Shown piece after piece: positions 9,955 to 61,303 of a stretch of DNA of 64,000 nt. A model generated the notes under the pieces. That model was not told the DNA's origin, ran no database searches, and saw only the letters and a program-made list of their open reading frames with translations. The stretch is from NCBI GenBank assembly GCA_018697035.1, contig JABHSE010000004.1, positions 195,300 through 259,299 of the forward strand, read 5' to 3'. Every line of letters starts with the position of its first letter. Position 1 is the stretch's first letter. This DNA is from an archaeon (GTDB taxonomy: Archaea > Nanobdellota > Nanobdellia > Pacearchaeales > GW2011-AR1). The position numbers and the translations under genes are program-made.

Positions 9955-10902
9955 ATGCAACGTAAACCGACAACCGACAACCGACAACCGACAACCGAAC
10001 CAAAGCAAGCTTTGGTTCTCTATTCCGGCGGCCTCGACTCTCGACTAGTGATTCGCCTCCTCCAAGACCAAGATTTCCAAATCACTGCACTCTATTTCGC
10101 ACTCCCATTCGGCTGTGGCTGCTGCAATATAAATTGCAACTTCAACTTTACTCAAAAAGAAAAAGTAAGATTAGAAATCATGGACGTCAACAAAGAGCCA
10201 CTTCTTTCAGAATATCTAGACATTCTAAAAAACCCAAAACACGGAACAGGAGCAGGCATCAATCCATGCAAAGACTGCAAAATCTTCATGTTCAAAAAAG
10301 CCAAAGAATACGCAGACAAACACAATATCGAACTCATAGCAACAGGCGAAGTAATCGGCCAAAGACCAATGTCCCAAATTCCCTCAGCCATGAAAACAAT
10401 CGACGAACAACTAGACTTTGAAATTCTCCGGCCACTTTCAGCAAAAAAATTAAAAGAAACCCATGTGGAAAAATCAGGATTAGTAAATAGAGAGAAGTTC
10501 CTAAGTATAAGGGGACGAGGAAGAAAAGAACAAATGGCATTAGCAGAAAAATATAAAATAAAATATCCAACACCAGGAGGCGGATGCTTCCTATGTGAAA
10601 AATCTCCAGCATCAAGGTTAAAACATCTATTAGAAAAAAATCTCATCACTGAAAAAACATTACCACTTACGATGATTGGCAGACACTTCTATATCAACAA
10701 CACATGGCTCGTAGTAGCACGAGACGCAAAAGAATCCAAAACAATCAACTCATTTGAAAATCGCATCCCAGACGAAAAAGGAAAACCTTCAGTATACTAC
10801 TCAAACCCAAAAGAAAAAGAAACAGTACTAAGTCTCCAACAGGCATATTCAACAGGAGACAACGAAAAAGAAAGAGATAAATTCAAAAAATACAAATTAT
10901 GA
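9955..10902 (+). CDS. PP-loop ATPase, tRNA thiolation (ThiI/MnmA-like) family
   Basis: ALVLYSGGLDSRL PP-loop, ATGEVIGQRPMSQ, GGGCFLCE. Confidence 0.8.
   Translation: MQRKPTTDNRQPTTEPKQALVLYSGGLDSRLVIRLLQDQDFQITALYFALPFGCGCCNINCNFNFTQKEKVRLEIMDVNKEPLLSEYLDILKNPKHGTGAGINPCKDCKIFMFKKAKEYADKHNIELIATGEVIGQRPMSQIPSAMKTIDEQLDFEILRPLSAKKLKETHVEKSGLVNREKFLSIRGRGRKEQMALAEKYKIKYPTPGGGCFLCEKSPASRLKHLLEKNLITEKTLPLTMIGRHFYINNTWLVVARDAKESKTINSFENRIPDEKGKPSVYYSNPKEKETVLSLQQAYSTGDNEKERDKFKKYKL
9964..10018. repeat. Heptamer tandem repeat (CAACCGA x4 plus degenerate copy) abutting a 10-bp hairpin
   Basis: Four exact CAACCGA copies 9971-9998, then GAACCAAAGC-AA-GCTTTGGTTC 9997-10018. Confidence 0.9.
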
Positions 10903-28146: not shown

Positions 28147-28282
28147 TTCTAGAATCGAATGGCTTGCCGTTTAAAGAAAATCTTATGATTTACTTTAGAA
28201 ATCTTCGATTTCGTGTCCGAGTTTTTCTAAAGCGAAGGCGATTTGCCCTTTAGGGTACTTGCGAAGCGTGGGGTACAGGCGT
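28135..28282. repeat. Structured insertion flanked by 13-bp direct repeats of tRNA 3' end
   Basis: GGGGTACAGGCGT at 28135-28147 and 28270-28282; internal core 28170-28238 matches 61174-61242. Confidence 0.85.
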
Positions 28283-31884: not shown

Positions 31885-31991
31885 AACTACCATTTTTCGC
31901 AAGAAAAATAACCACCAAATTCAAAGAATTTAACCACCGAACATTGAAAATGTTCAACCACCCGATTAACGCGAAGCGTTAATCAACCATC
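31885..31991. repeat. Array of four variable hairpins separated by AACCACC
   Basis: TTTTTC/GAAAAA, AAATTC/GAATTT, GAACATT/AATGTTC, GATTAACGC/GCGTTAATC between AACYAYC linkers at 31885, 31910, 31932, 31956, 31985. Confidence 0.92.
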
Positions 31992-32287
31992 TCAATTTTG
32001 ATCTTAACCGTTCGAGGAATAGAAATCCTCATAACATTATGCAACACCCTATCATTAGCCGGCAAATCAACAATCCGCTTATGAATCCTCATCTCATACC
32101 TATCAAATGTAGCAGTCCCATCACCACAAGGAGATTTCCTCGTCGTAACTTTCAATCTTTTAGTAGGCAAAGGAATTGGCCCAGAAATCGGAATCCCCGC
32201 TCCACTAGCAATAGTCTTTATCCGATCGATAACAGCATTCAACTTATCGATCTCCACGCTCTGCAATTTAATCCGCACGGTTGTCAT
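31979..32287 (-). CDS. rpsJ: 30S ribosomal protein S10
   Basis: RIKLQSVEIDKLNAV...GPIPLPTKRLKVTTRKSPCGDGTATFDRYEMRIHKRIVDL. Confidence 0.95.
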   Translation of the reverse strand: MTTVRIKLQSVEIDKLNAVIDRIKTIASGAGIPISGPIPLPTKRLKVTTRKSPCGDGTATFDRYEMRIHKRIVDLPANDRVLHNVMRISIPRTVKIKIEMVD

Positions 32288-35931: not shown

Positions 35932-36393
35932 ATGCTAACCCAAATATCAGAATTCATAGCTACAACAACAGAACCCCTCATCCTCCTAACCCTAGCCATC
36001 ATAATCTCCATAATTCTCTACAGCAAAAATAACTCAAAGGCAATTCTCCTAGCCTCAACATCCCTAATCACAGCTATCGTAATCAAAATCCTAAAGACAA
36101 CAATCCAAGCACCAAGACCAATATCAAACCTAATCCAAGAAACAGGATACTCATTCCCATCAGGTCACACAACATTCGCCGTAATATTCTTCGGACTCCT
36201 AGTCTACATCTTCACAAAAACCAAAAACCAAAAAATCATAGCATCTGTCATCGCAACCCTAACAGTAACAACAATCGCCCTTTCCCGTCTAATTCTAAAA
36301 GTTCACTATCCAATAGACATAATCGGAGGCTTAATAATTGGAACCTCAATCCTAATAATCTCAATTCTAGCCCACAAAAAACTAACATCTTAA
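35932..36393 (+). CDS. PAP2-family phosphatase
   Basis: KTTIQAPRP...SFPSGHTTFAV...SRLILKVHYPIDIIGG. Confidence 0.93.
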   Translation: MLTQISEFIATTTEPLILLTLAIIISIILYSKNNSKAILLASTSLITAIVIKILKTTIQAPRPISNLIQETGYSFPSGHTTFAVIFFGLLVYIFTKTKNQKIIASVIATLTVTTIALSRLILKVHYPIDIIGGLIIGTSILIISILAHKKLTS

Positions 36394-36404
36394 ACCCAGC
36401 TTCA

Positions 36405-36516
36405 AAACCGCCAAGCCCCGCGAAGCATTGAACCACCCACATTCAAAGAATGTGAACCACCCATCGGAAAAGCCGATGAACCACCCTCAATCTTAAACAT
36501 TAACGTTTAAGATTGA
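36405..36516. repeat. Array of variable hairpins with GAACCACCC linkers at exact 24-bp period
   Basis: GAACCACCC at 36430, 36454, 36478; hairpins 36438-36454, 36462-36478, 36487-36516; header AAACCGCCAAG at 36405. Confidence 0.92.
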
Positions 36517-37534
36517 CGTCCATCTGCGGAAACGGAATCTCAATCCCAGCCTTATTCAAAGCATTATAAATCCGAGTATTAGCATCATCCGTAGCATCAG
36601 CAACATCATCAAAAGAGGTAATATAAAAATACGCCTTAAAATTCAAACTCGAATCCGCCATCTCCATAAACCTAACAACGATATCCTTCTCCTCAAACAA
36701 TCCCTTAACCTTCTTAATCTCCCCCAACGCCAACTTCTTCACCTTCTTAACGTCACTACCATACGCAACACCAAACGGAACAACAACTCTAGTTTCAGGT
36801 CCAGGCAAAGCAACATTCTTAATATTCGATTCACTCAACTTCCCATTCGGAACAATCACTAGCTTATTATTAAAAGTCCTAATCTTAGTACTCCTCAAAT
36901 TAATCTTCGAAATATACCCAGCAGTCCCATCATCCAAATTAACCAAATCACCGACGCTAATAGACCTATCCAATATCATCGAAATCCCACCAAATACATT
37001 CGCAAGAGTAGACTGCAAAGCAAAAGCAATAGCAATACCAGCAACTCCAAGACCAGCCAAAAGCGGTCCAATCGCAATACCCCAGCTAGCTAAAATAACC
37101 AAAAACGCAACAACAATCATAATAACAGCCAACATACTATGGAAAAACTGCAACAAACTCTCATTAACTCGTCCCTTAACCTTCGTCCCAAAATCCTTAT
37201 ACCCAATCGTCACCAAAGCATCCACAATATAATAAACCAAAACAGCCACGAACACAATCATAAAAGTCAAAATAATCCCCTCAATCGTCCCATTCAAACT
37301 CTCCTCGATATTCAACTCCCCAATCGCAAACCTAACACCAGCCAAAAGCGCAAGCAAAGTCAAGGGCATAGAAGACTTCCTCAATATAACATCATCCAAA
37401 TTAGTTTTAGTCTTCCGCGTAAAAACAGGAACAACTCTAGCCAAAAAAAACATCAAAATCCTTATAGCCAAGAACACAATTAAAAAAACAGCCCCAGCCC
37501 TCAAATACGCATTACCAATATATTCTTCTAACAT
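36500..37534 (-). CDS. mscS: MscS-type mechanosensitive channel
   Basis: GLGVAGIAIAFALQSTLANVFGGISMILDRSISVGDLV. Confidence 0.95.
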   Translation of the reverse strand: MLEEYIGNAYLRAGAVFLIVFLAIRILMFFLARVVPVFTRKTKTNLDDVILRKSSMPLTLLALLAGVRFAIGELNIEESLNGTIEGIILTFMIVFVAVLVYYIVDALVTIGYKDFGTKVKGRVNESLLQFFHSMLAVIMIVVAFLVILASWGIAIGPLLAGLGVAGIAIAFALQSTLANVFGGISMILDRSISVGDLVNLDDGTAGYISKINLRSTKIRTFNNKLVIVPNGKLSESNIKNVALPGPETRVVVPFGVAYGSDVKKVKKLALGEIKKVKGLFEEKDIVVRFMEMADSSLNFKAYFYITSFDDVADATDDANTRIYNALNKAGIEIPFPQMDVNLKR

Positions 37535-60951: not shown

Positions 60952-61056
60952 TCCCTATTTATTTAATTTTCTATATAACCAAAACCTACAAGCTCCTAAT
61001 ATATATGATATATACCAAACAAACTTTTTTAAAACCTAAAATCAACAATCTTTTAT

Positions 61057-61128
61057 GCGTGGGTAGTATAGTGGTTATTATTCGACGTTGCCAACGTTGG
61101 GGCCCGGGTTCGATCCCCGGCCCGCGCA
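61057..61128 (+). tRNA. tRNA-Gly (GCC)
   Basis: GCGTGGG/CCCGCGC acceptor, CGACG-TTGCCAA-CGTTG. Confidence 0.95.
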
Positions 61129-61163
61129 TTTATTTTTTATACTTCTTTTAATACATGCTTCAT

Positions 61164-61302
61164 GCTTGGGTAGTTTAAAGGAAATCTTTGATTTTCTTTA
61201 GGGAACTTTAGTTCCCGTGTCCGAGCTTTTCTAAAGCGACGGTAGTGGTTAGAATCTGTCGTTGCCAACGATGGGACCGGGGTTCGAGCCCCCGCCCGCG
61301 CA
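61164..61302 (+). tRNA. Second tRNA-Gly (GCC) interrupted in D-arm by ~67-nt insertion
   Basis: GCTTGGGTAGT[insertion]TAGTGGTTAGAATCTGTCGTTGCCAACGATGGGACCGGGGTTCGAGCCCCCGCCCGCGCA; GGTAGT repeated at 61169 and 61241. Confidence 0.85.
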
Positions 61303-61303
61303 T

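Follow-up and report, generated by a model that had tools for sequence, protein, structure and literature searches.

The 3′ end of mscS

What is a chain of different hairpins, held together by one recurring short sequence, doing at the 3′ end of a gene for a mechanosensitive channel in a tiny DPANN archaeon? Is it an mRNA tail maintained by selection, the product of a local mutational process, or DNA that moves? With a probability of about 60%, we read the array as one copy of a genus-restricted, non-autonomous, modular family of palindromic mobile DNA. A common grammar recurs at 24 places in four genomes, stems covary, whole hairpins are reused, and arrays are present or absent at orthologous sites; from these observations we infer mobility, duplication of targets and renewal of stems by fold-back copying.

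The array (36401-36516 of the window, as we call the whole 64-kb stretch analysed here) lies on the minus strand at the end of mscS (36500-37534, minus strand) and faces a convergent PAP2 phosphatase gene (35932-36393, plus strand); both genes are supported by open reading frames and by Pfam. On the plus strand, GAACCACCC occurs at 36430, 36454 and 36478 and nowhere else in the window, a number of copies that 0 of 100 dinucleotide shuffles matched. The three copies (36430-36438, with GGGTGGTTC and its core GGTGGTT on the sense strand; 36454-36462; 36478-36486; all minus strand) alternate with near-perfect hairpins that differ from one another, namely CACATTC-AAA-GAATGTG (36438-36454, with a 7-bp stem and a 3-nt loop), CATCGG-AAAAG-CCGATG (36462-36478) and a terminal TCAATCTTAAAC-ATTAAC-GTTTAAGATTGA (36487-36516), whose 12-bp stem is perfect; these too are on the minus strand. 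According to the mscS reading frame, the stop codon (TTA on the plus strand, 36500-36502) falls inside the terminal loop. Up to this point we confirm an earlier note on this DNA, which had described the 24-bp spacing, the hairpin sequences and the position of the stop codon, but the repeat unit is better read as a 17-nt hairpin, with a C..G pair counted in, plus a 7-nt linker, AACCACC (sense GGTGGTT). The array's tail (36401-36429, minus strand) reads CAATGCTTCGCGGGGCTTGGCGGTTTTGAA in the sense direction and includes the GCTTCGC..GGGGCTTGG tail common to other arrays. Folded as single-stranded DNA, the array reaches z = -7.4, and its mRNA-sense strand folded as RNA reaches z = -3.6, with no shuffle equal in either case.

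A constant linker between changing hairpins

The note had also pointed to a second array of the same kind (locus A, 31892-31992, minus strand), and this array is real as well. Its hairpins are GATTAACG..CGTTAATC, GAACATT..AATGTTC, AAATTC..GAATTT and ATTTTTC..GAAAAAT, its linkers are AACCACC, and a tail, GCTTTTGC GGGGTGCTTG, stands farther along. The host gene is rpsJ (ribosomal protein S10; 31979-32287, minus strand; Pfam), whose stop lies within the 5′ arm of the hairpin GATTAACG..CGTTAATC. At both loci the genes are convergent and the minus-strand gene merges at its 3′ end with the terminal hairpin, as the note had said. Neither this layout nor the exact 24-bp period can be generalised: units measure 22-25 bp in locus A and 16-28 bp in other arrays, several arrays stand between genes that run in the same direction, and at least five sit within genes, in frame.

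The note had reasoned that the idea would fail if the genome held no further copies; a genome-wide search at the 24-bp period turned them up. Paired linkers 24 bp apart occur at five exact places in the 809-kb genome (0 in the reversed control), and allowing mismatches adds locus A and partial copies. Arrays with the same linkers and different hairpins lie inside the genes for the tRNA ligase RtcB, a PP-loop ATPase and leucyl-tRNA synthetase (LeuRS), where the reading frames continue through the arrays and yield peptides such as GGSDSVNLGGSQSEIVGGSKTVSLGGS; these host genes are backed by Pfam. A covariance model and a linker-free scan gave more copies, for example 3′ of proteasome-subunit-like and rhomboid-like genes (names assigned by inspection of the sequence).

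From these searches we compiled by hand a set of 24 arrays over four genomes, each present verbatim in the fetched DNA; the set is not exhaustive. On the sense strand, a first and often long hairpin is followed by linker, hairpin, linker and so on, and arrays often end in CAGC-TTC-GCTG and then GGGGCTTGG. The linker is a near-constant 7 nt, GRKGGYT. Because unit length differs between arrays (exactly 24 bp in the mscS, RtcB and PP-loop arrays and in most of array L100; about 16 to 28 in others), it is the linker and not the period that is constant. It is also what tells arrays from noise; the linker-free scan for chains of at least three hairpins gave a total count near background. Stems are usually closed by a C-G pair. 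Twelve hairpin sequences recur between arrays, some of them across species: CAGCTTCGCTG is found in eight arrays from three genomes, and CATCTGCGGATG five times in a single genome, G011.

How far does the family extend? Convincing arrays occur in 4 of 16 genomes of one DPANN genus (the source genome, G000, and G003, G008 and G011), a set that includes the deposited MAG Nanoarchaeota archaeon KR11_0.1_MetaG.mb.26; linkers are mostly GATGGCT in the sister genomes versus GGTGGTT in the source. No convincing array was seen in 180 genomes of the family outside the genus, and in a phylum sample of 371 genomes matches fell in this genus alone, both scans having used stricter filters that would miss arrays with other linkers. 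Weak covariance matches in G001, G002, G015, G021, G025, G055 and G080 were inspected and resemble chance coding matches. When the triple-linker pattern was searched in GTDB genomes and IMG/VR, perfect hairpins were found, among the 520 matches listed, only in G011 contig JAHIEP010000048.1. As far as we have seen, the array family is confined to one archaeal genus.

Empty sites and flanking repeats

In 14 of the 24 arrays the start lies -28 to +48 nt from a same-strand stop codon, which in most cases the first hairpin contains. An open reading frame runs through another eight, and two belong to neither class. Five of these eight are clear in-frame inserts (RtcB, LeuRS, the PP-loop ATPase, a thioredoxin reductase and a wyosine radical-SAM enzyme); at L089 and L093 a gene end has been extended or broken, and the status of L088 is uncertain. 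One array, L072, is apparently antisense to its neighbours. Relatives supply the empty sites. For example, the RtcB insert of about 42 aa is missing in 29 relatives at a gap-free site, and the match to the PP-loop protein is split by its insert into two halves in 10 genomes of the same genus.

The orthologous comparison that the note had recommended is equally informative for mscS itself, whose orthologues in G009 (81% identical), G008, G007 and G006 have no array at their ends; judging by our own reading of the downstream bases, mscS in G009 and G006 passes directly into the convergent gene. Therefore, the 5′ arm of the terminal hairpin, on the sense strand, belongs to the native coding sequence for the mscS C-terminus (..VNLKR*); the 3′ arm, GTTTAAGATTGA, is either new or duplicated flank. 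That arm and the far flank form a 9-bp direct repeat, so that GTTTAAGAT stands on both sides of the array; its right-hand copy (ATCTTAAAC on the plus strand; 36387-36395, minus strand) overlaps the PAP2 stop codon. The 5′ arm of the first hairpin is likewise native coding sequence in RtcB (DYI) and LeuRS (EIS), and TTGATTAA stands on either side of the S10 array. Over the whole set, direct repeats between flanks exceed those between swapped flanks (permutation p ~0.01), an excess driven by four arrays (mscS, 9 bp; L084, 11 bp; L101; L088); the repeats are clear at only ~5 of 24 arrays and vary in length from 8 to 14 bp, and an earlier, stricter test gave borderline values only. No array site that is polymorphic within a species was seen, and movement is for this reason inferred from presence and absence between species, at about 70-80% protein identity.

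Structured RNA, mutation or mobile DNA

The stems are evidently kept paired. In 13 aligned units, 96.7% of cells pair compared with 67% after shuffling, and there are 23 double (compensated) changes versus 5.3 expected, a count that 0 of 500 shuffles reach; the signal is gone once the partner is slid by 1-3 columns. Units within a genome are related, and this covariation marks constraint on pairing or its repair, without telling which.

Are these stems, in other words, selected as RNA? In this main rival to mobile DNA, the chains would be mRNA 3′ ends that block 3′-5′ decay or antisense read-through, or would bind protein through GRKGGYU linkers, and the stems would covary since RNA structure is under selection. 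The 14 arrays that start at gene ends do so in sense orientation, many with the stop in the first hairpin; the sense RNA of the mscS array outfolds all shuffles; the stem covariation is strong; and the single-stranded linker is kept across species save for G/A and T/C changes. Sense-strand loops are often TTT or TTC (28 distinct hairpins, versus 8 with AAA or GAA), and this bias, together with the strict orientation, counts against mobile DNA, as an RNA role could explain both. However, chains run in frame through at least five unrelated genes, orthologues in sister species do without them, and Rfam offers no match (at its curated threshold it finds only tRNAs in the window, and a permissive search of the array loci gives a best E of 0.44). 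Nor do the pairs carry a significant RNA-strand signature, i.e. G-U over A-C: distinct hairpins are 92% Watson–Crick (430/465 pairs, smallest loop enforced), and the excess of G-U (18) over A-C (11) on the transcribed strand is not significant (p = 0.26). We find RNA selection rather doubtful as the explanation of the family, and a role for mRNA structure at 3′ ends possible.

Could mutation suffice, with local template switching and slippage making hairpin chains anywhere and no mobile copying at all? Perfect stems, first-hairpin 5′ arms that come from the host gene's own coding sequence, and an abundance of other short tandem repeats in this genome are what one would expect of such a process. 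Yet linker, tail and whole hairpins are common to unrelated loci and species, which independent local events would not yield, and arrays are limited to one genus, and there to 4 of its 16 genomes, making a purely mutational origin unlikely. Much less probable still is selection for an encoded linker peptide, GGSxxxxx: in-frame arrays do read GGSDSVNLGGSQSEIVGGSKTVSL and DGSQLKVVDGSTASDGSQSKIV, but most arrays come after stop codons, and the existence of arrays outside coding sequence refutes this as a general explanation; moreover, coding repeats of the ordinary sort that share the spaced linker motif are not palindromic, the sister-genome array being the sole exception among the 520 matches listed. 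Chance or an assembly artefact, for which we found no supporting point, can practically be dismissed on the 0/100 shuffles and on a grammar shared by four separate assemblies, and copies in four genomes that were assembled independently exclude the assembly noise that the note had named as a possible refutation.

How, then, might mobile palindromic DNA produce these arrays? The element would be a chain of short hairpins and GRKGGYT linkers, often ending in CAGC-TTC-GCTG GGGGCTTGGCGG. Insertion would occur in a single orientation at the 3′ ends of genes, where the cost to the host would be low and the chain would become a structured mRNA tail; insertion inside genes would be tolerated if the frame is kept, and would give flexible loops rich in GGS or DGS. 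Some insertions would leave a target duplication of 8-14 bp. Chains may lengthen and swap units through duplication and recombination at the linkers, and intrastrand template switching (fold-back copying), not slow selection alone, would create the stems and restore their perfection, with the palindromes kept at the DNA level. In one step, template switching yields both a perfect stem and compensation at several bases (PMC8794818), which fits stems that are unrelated yet perfect and the missing G-U excess.

As for the enzyme that moves them, the Y1 transposase (PF01797) was not detected in G000, G003, G008 or G011 (79-87% complete, which makes absence uncertain) and is present in 6 of the 12 array-free genomes of the genus; with no Y1 transposase detected in any array genome, we reject mobilisation of the REP/RAYT type. 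Reverse transcriptase (RVT_1) was not detected in G000, G003 or G008 (at the same completeness, with absence again uncertain), and among array genomes it matched in G011 alone, as two broken pieces; a match in one of four array genomes leaves it unsupported as a common mover. We also put forward, tentatively, a hairpin-cassette system in which units of one hairpin and one 7-nt linker would be excised, exchanged and re-inserted at linkers, with new units arising as fold-back copies of the target gene's end. If so, each locus would carry its own changing series of hairpins, and the family would be mobile DNA that inherits secondary structure and not sequence.

Known palindromic repeats

In habit, the arrays come closest to Rickettsia palindromic elements (RPE), along with REP and PARCEL. 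Both RPE and the archaeal arrays are palindromic and non-autonomous, and both occur in frame inside unrelated genes as well as outside genes, the in-frame habit of RPE having been described in a review of MITEs (PMC10969869). RPE, however, are single elements of ~150 bp with a conserved family sequence in a bacterium, whereas the arrays are unrelated short hairpins with a constant 7-nt linker at archaeal gene 3′ ends; homology to RPE is not expected, the stems not being conserved. REP and REPIN resemble the arrays as short palindromes with a constant unpaired tag, and REP are usually found 3′ of coding regions, the spaces between convergent genes included, and at times inside genes (PMC3733652). 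The GTAG or CGTC tag of REP/RAYT is nevertheless absent from the compiled arrays, where the linker is GRKGGYT and stems are not conserved, and Y1 was not detected in the four array genomes. PARCEL are tandem protein-coding repeats with dyad symmetry that spread by transfer and shuffling (PMC2996958). In PARCEL, each unit is an amphipathic motif of 25 residues within a repeat protein; the coding arrays lack this motif and have units of 6-8 residues, GGS or DGS in character, that interrupt core enzymes, and most arrays are noncoding. Measured against MITEs, the compiled arrays have no visible common terminal inverted repeat, sharing linkers and tail; as regards the fixed-length target-site duplication of MITEs, they show the 8-14-bp direct repeats already described (~5/24, p ~0.01).

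Mobile-looking short hairpins in compact genomes are also known from fungal mitochondria, as double-hairpin elements. To our knowledge, no chain of variable hairpins on a constant linker is known among mitochondrial hairpin elements. Those of sponges and fungi reside in organelle genomes, unlike the archaeal arrays; for sponge mitochondria, repetitive, hairpin-forming, mobile-looking elements have been described in compact genomes (PMC2800124). We found no matching description of such repeats in archaea or DPANN in the open-licence literature.

If the arrays are mobile, palindromic gene-invading repeats known from Rickettsia would extend to tiny DPANN archaea in a form that conserves nothing but a 7-nt linker and the capacity to fold. 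Since many independent, perfect and unrelated stems stand beside datable empty sites in sister species, the family would offer a natural test of whether hairpins originate and are repaired by template switching. It would also show how repeat DNA, inserted in frame, gives core enzymes such as RtcB and LeuRS flexible Gly-Ser loops.

Neighbouring repeats

Several further observations concern protein-coding genes. On the plus strand of L002 (~1640-1680), 7-bp AACCAAG repeats (protein KNQEPRTKNQ) come directly after the hairpin array of the PP-loop gene. In the window (9961-10018), the N-terminal end of a PP-loop gene apparently includes, in frame, five copies of the 7-bp repeat AACCGAC and a GAACCAAAGC/GCTTTGGTTC hairpin. 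The LeuRS reading frame (L009) has a NUDIX domain within its editing region. The rtcB gene of G008 (L029, 1455-1525) has an unrelated short repeat insert, of GATGATAGA units, where G000 has the hairpin array, and another array of G008 (L080, G008:C6:183136) has on either side a nearly identical copy of one coding stretch (GCGATTGTTGGTGTGACTCCGATTCCTGCGACTGGAGAATGG) and thus sits inside a local duplication.

Genes for tRNAs have hairpin repeats of their own. In sampled stretches of G000, G008, G013 and G003, about 16 of 80 tRNA genes are followed, within 40-350 bp, by a second copy of the ~18 nt with which they end, a count in which one or two pairs may be neighbouring tRNA genes. The intervals are rich in hairpins, often with GCGAACAATTTGCTC..(hairpin)..GAGTGAATTGTGAG; examples are the window at 61056-61129, with a copy near 61259-61303, and L095, L096, L100, L104, L105, L110 and L134-L149. 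They look like mini-elements aimed at tRNA 3′ ends. Finally, a second family of hairpin chains, with the linker GTGTCCGAG, lies directly 3′ of tRNA genes in G000 (28158-28257 and 61154-61237 of the window) and in G008, with a further chain in L122 (2987-3085).
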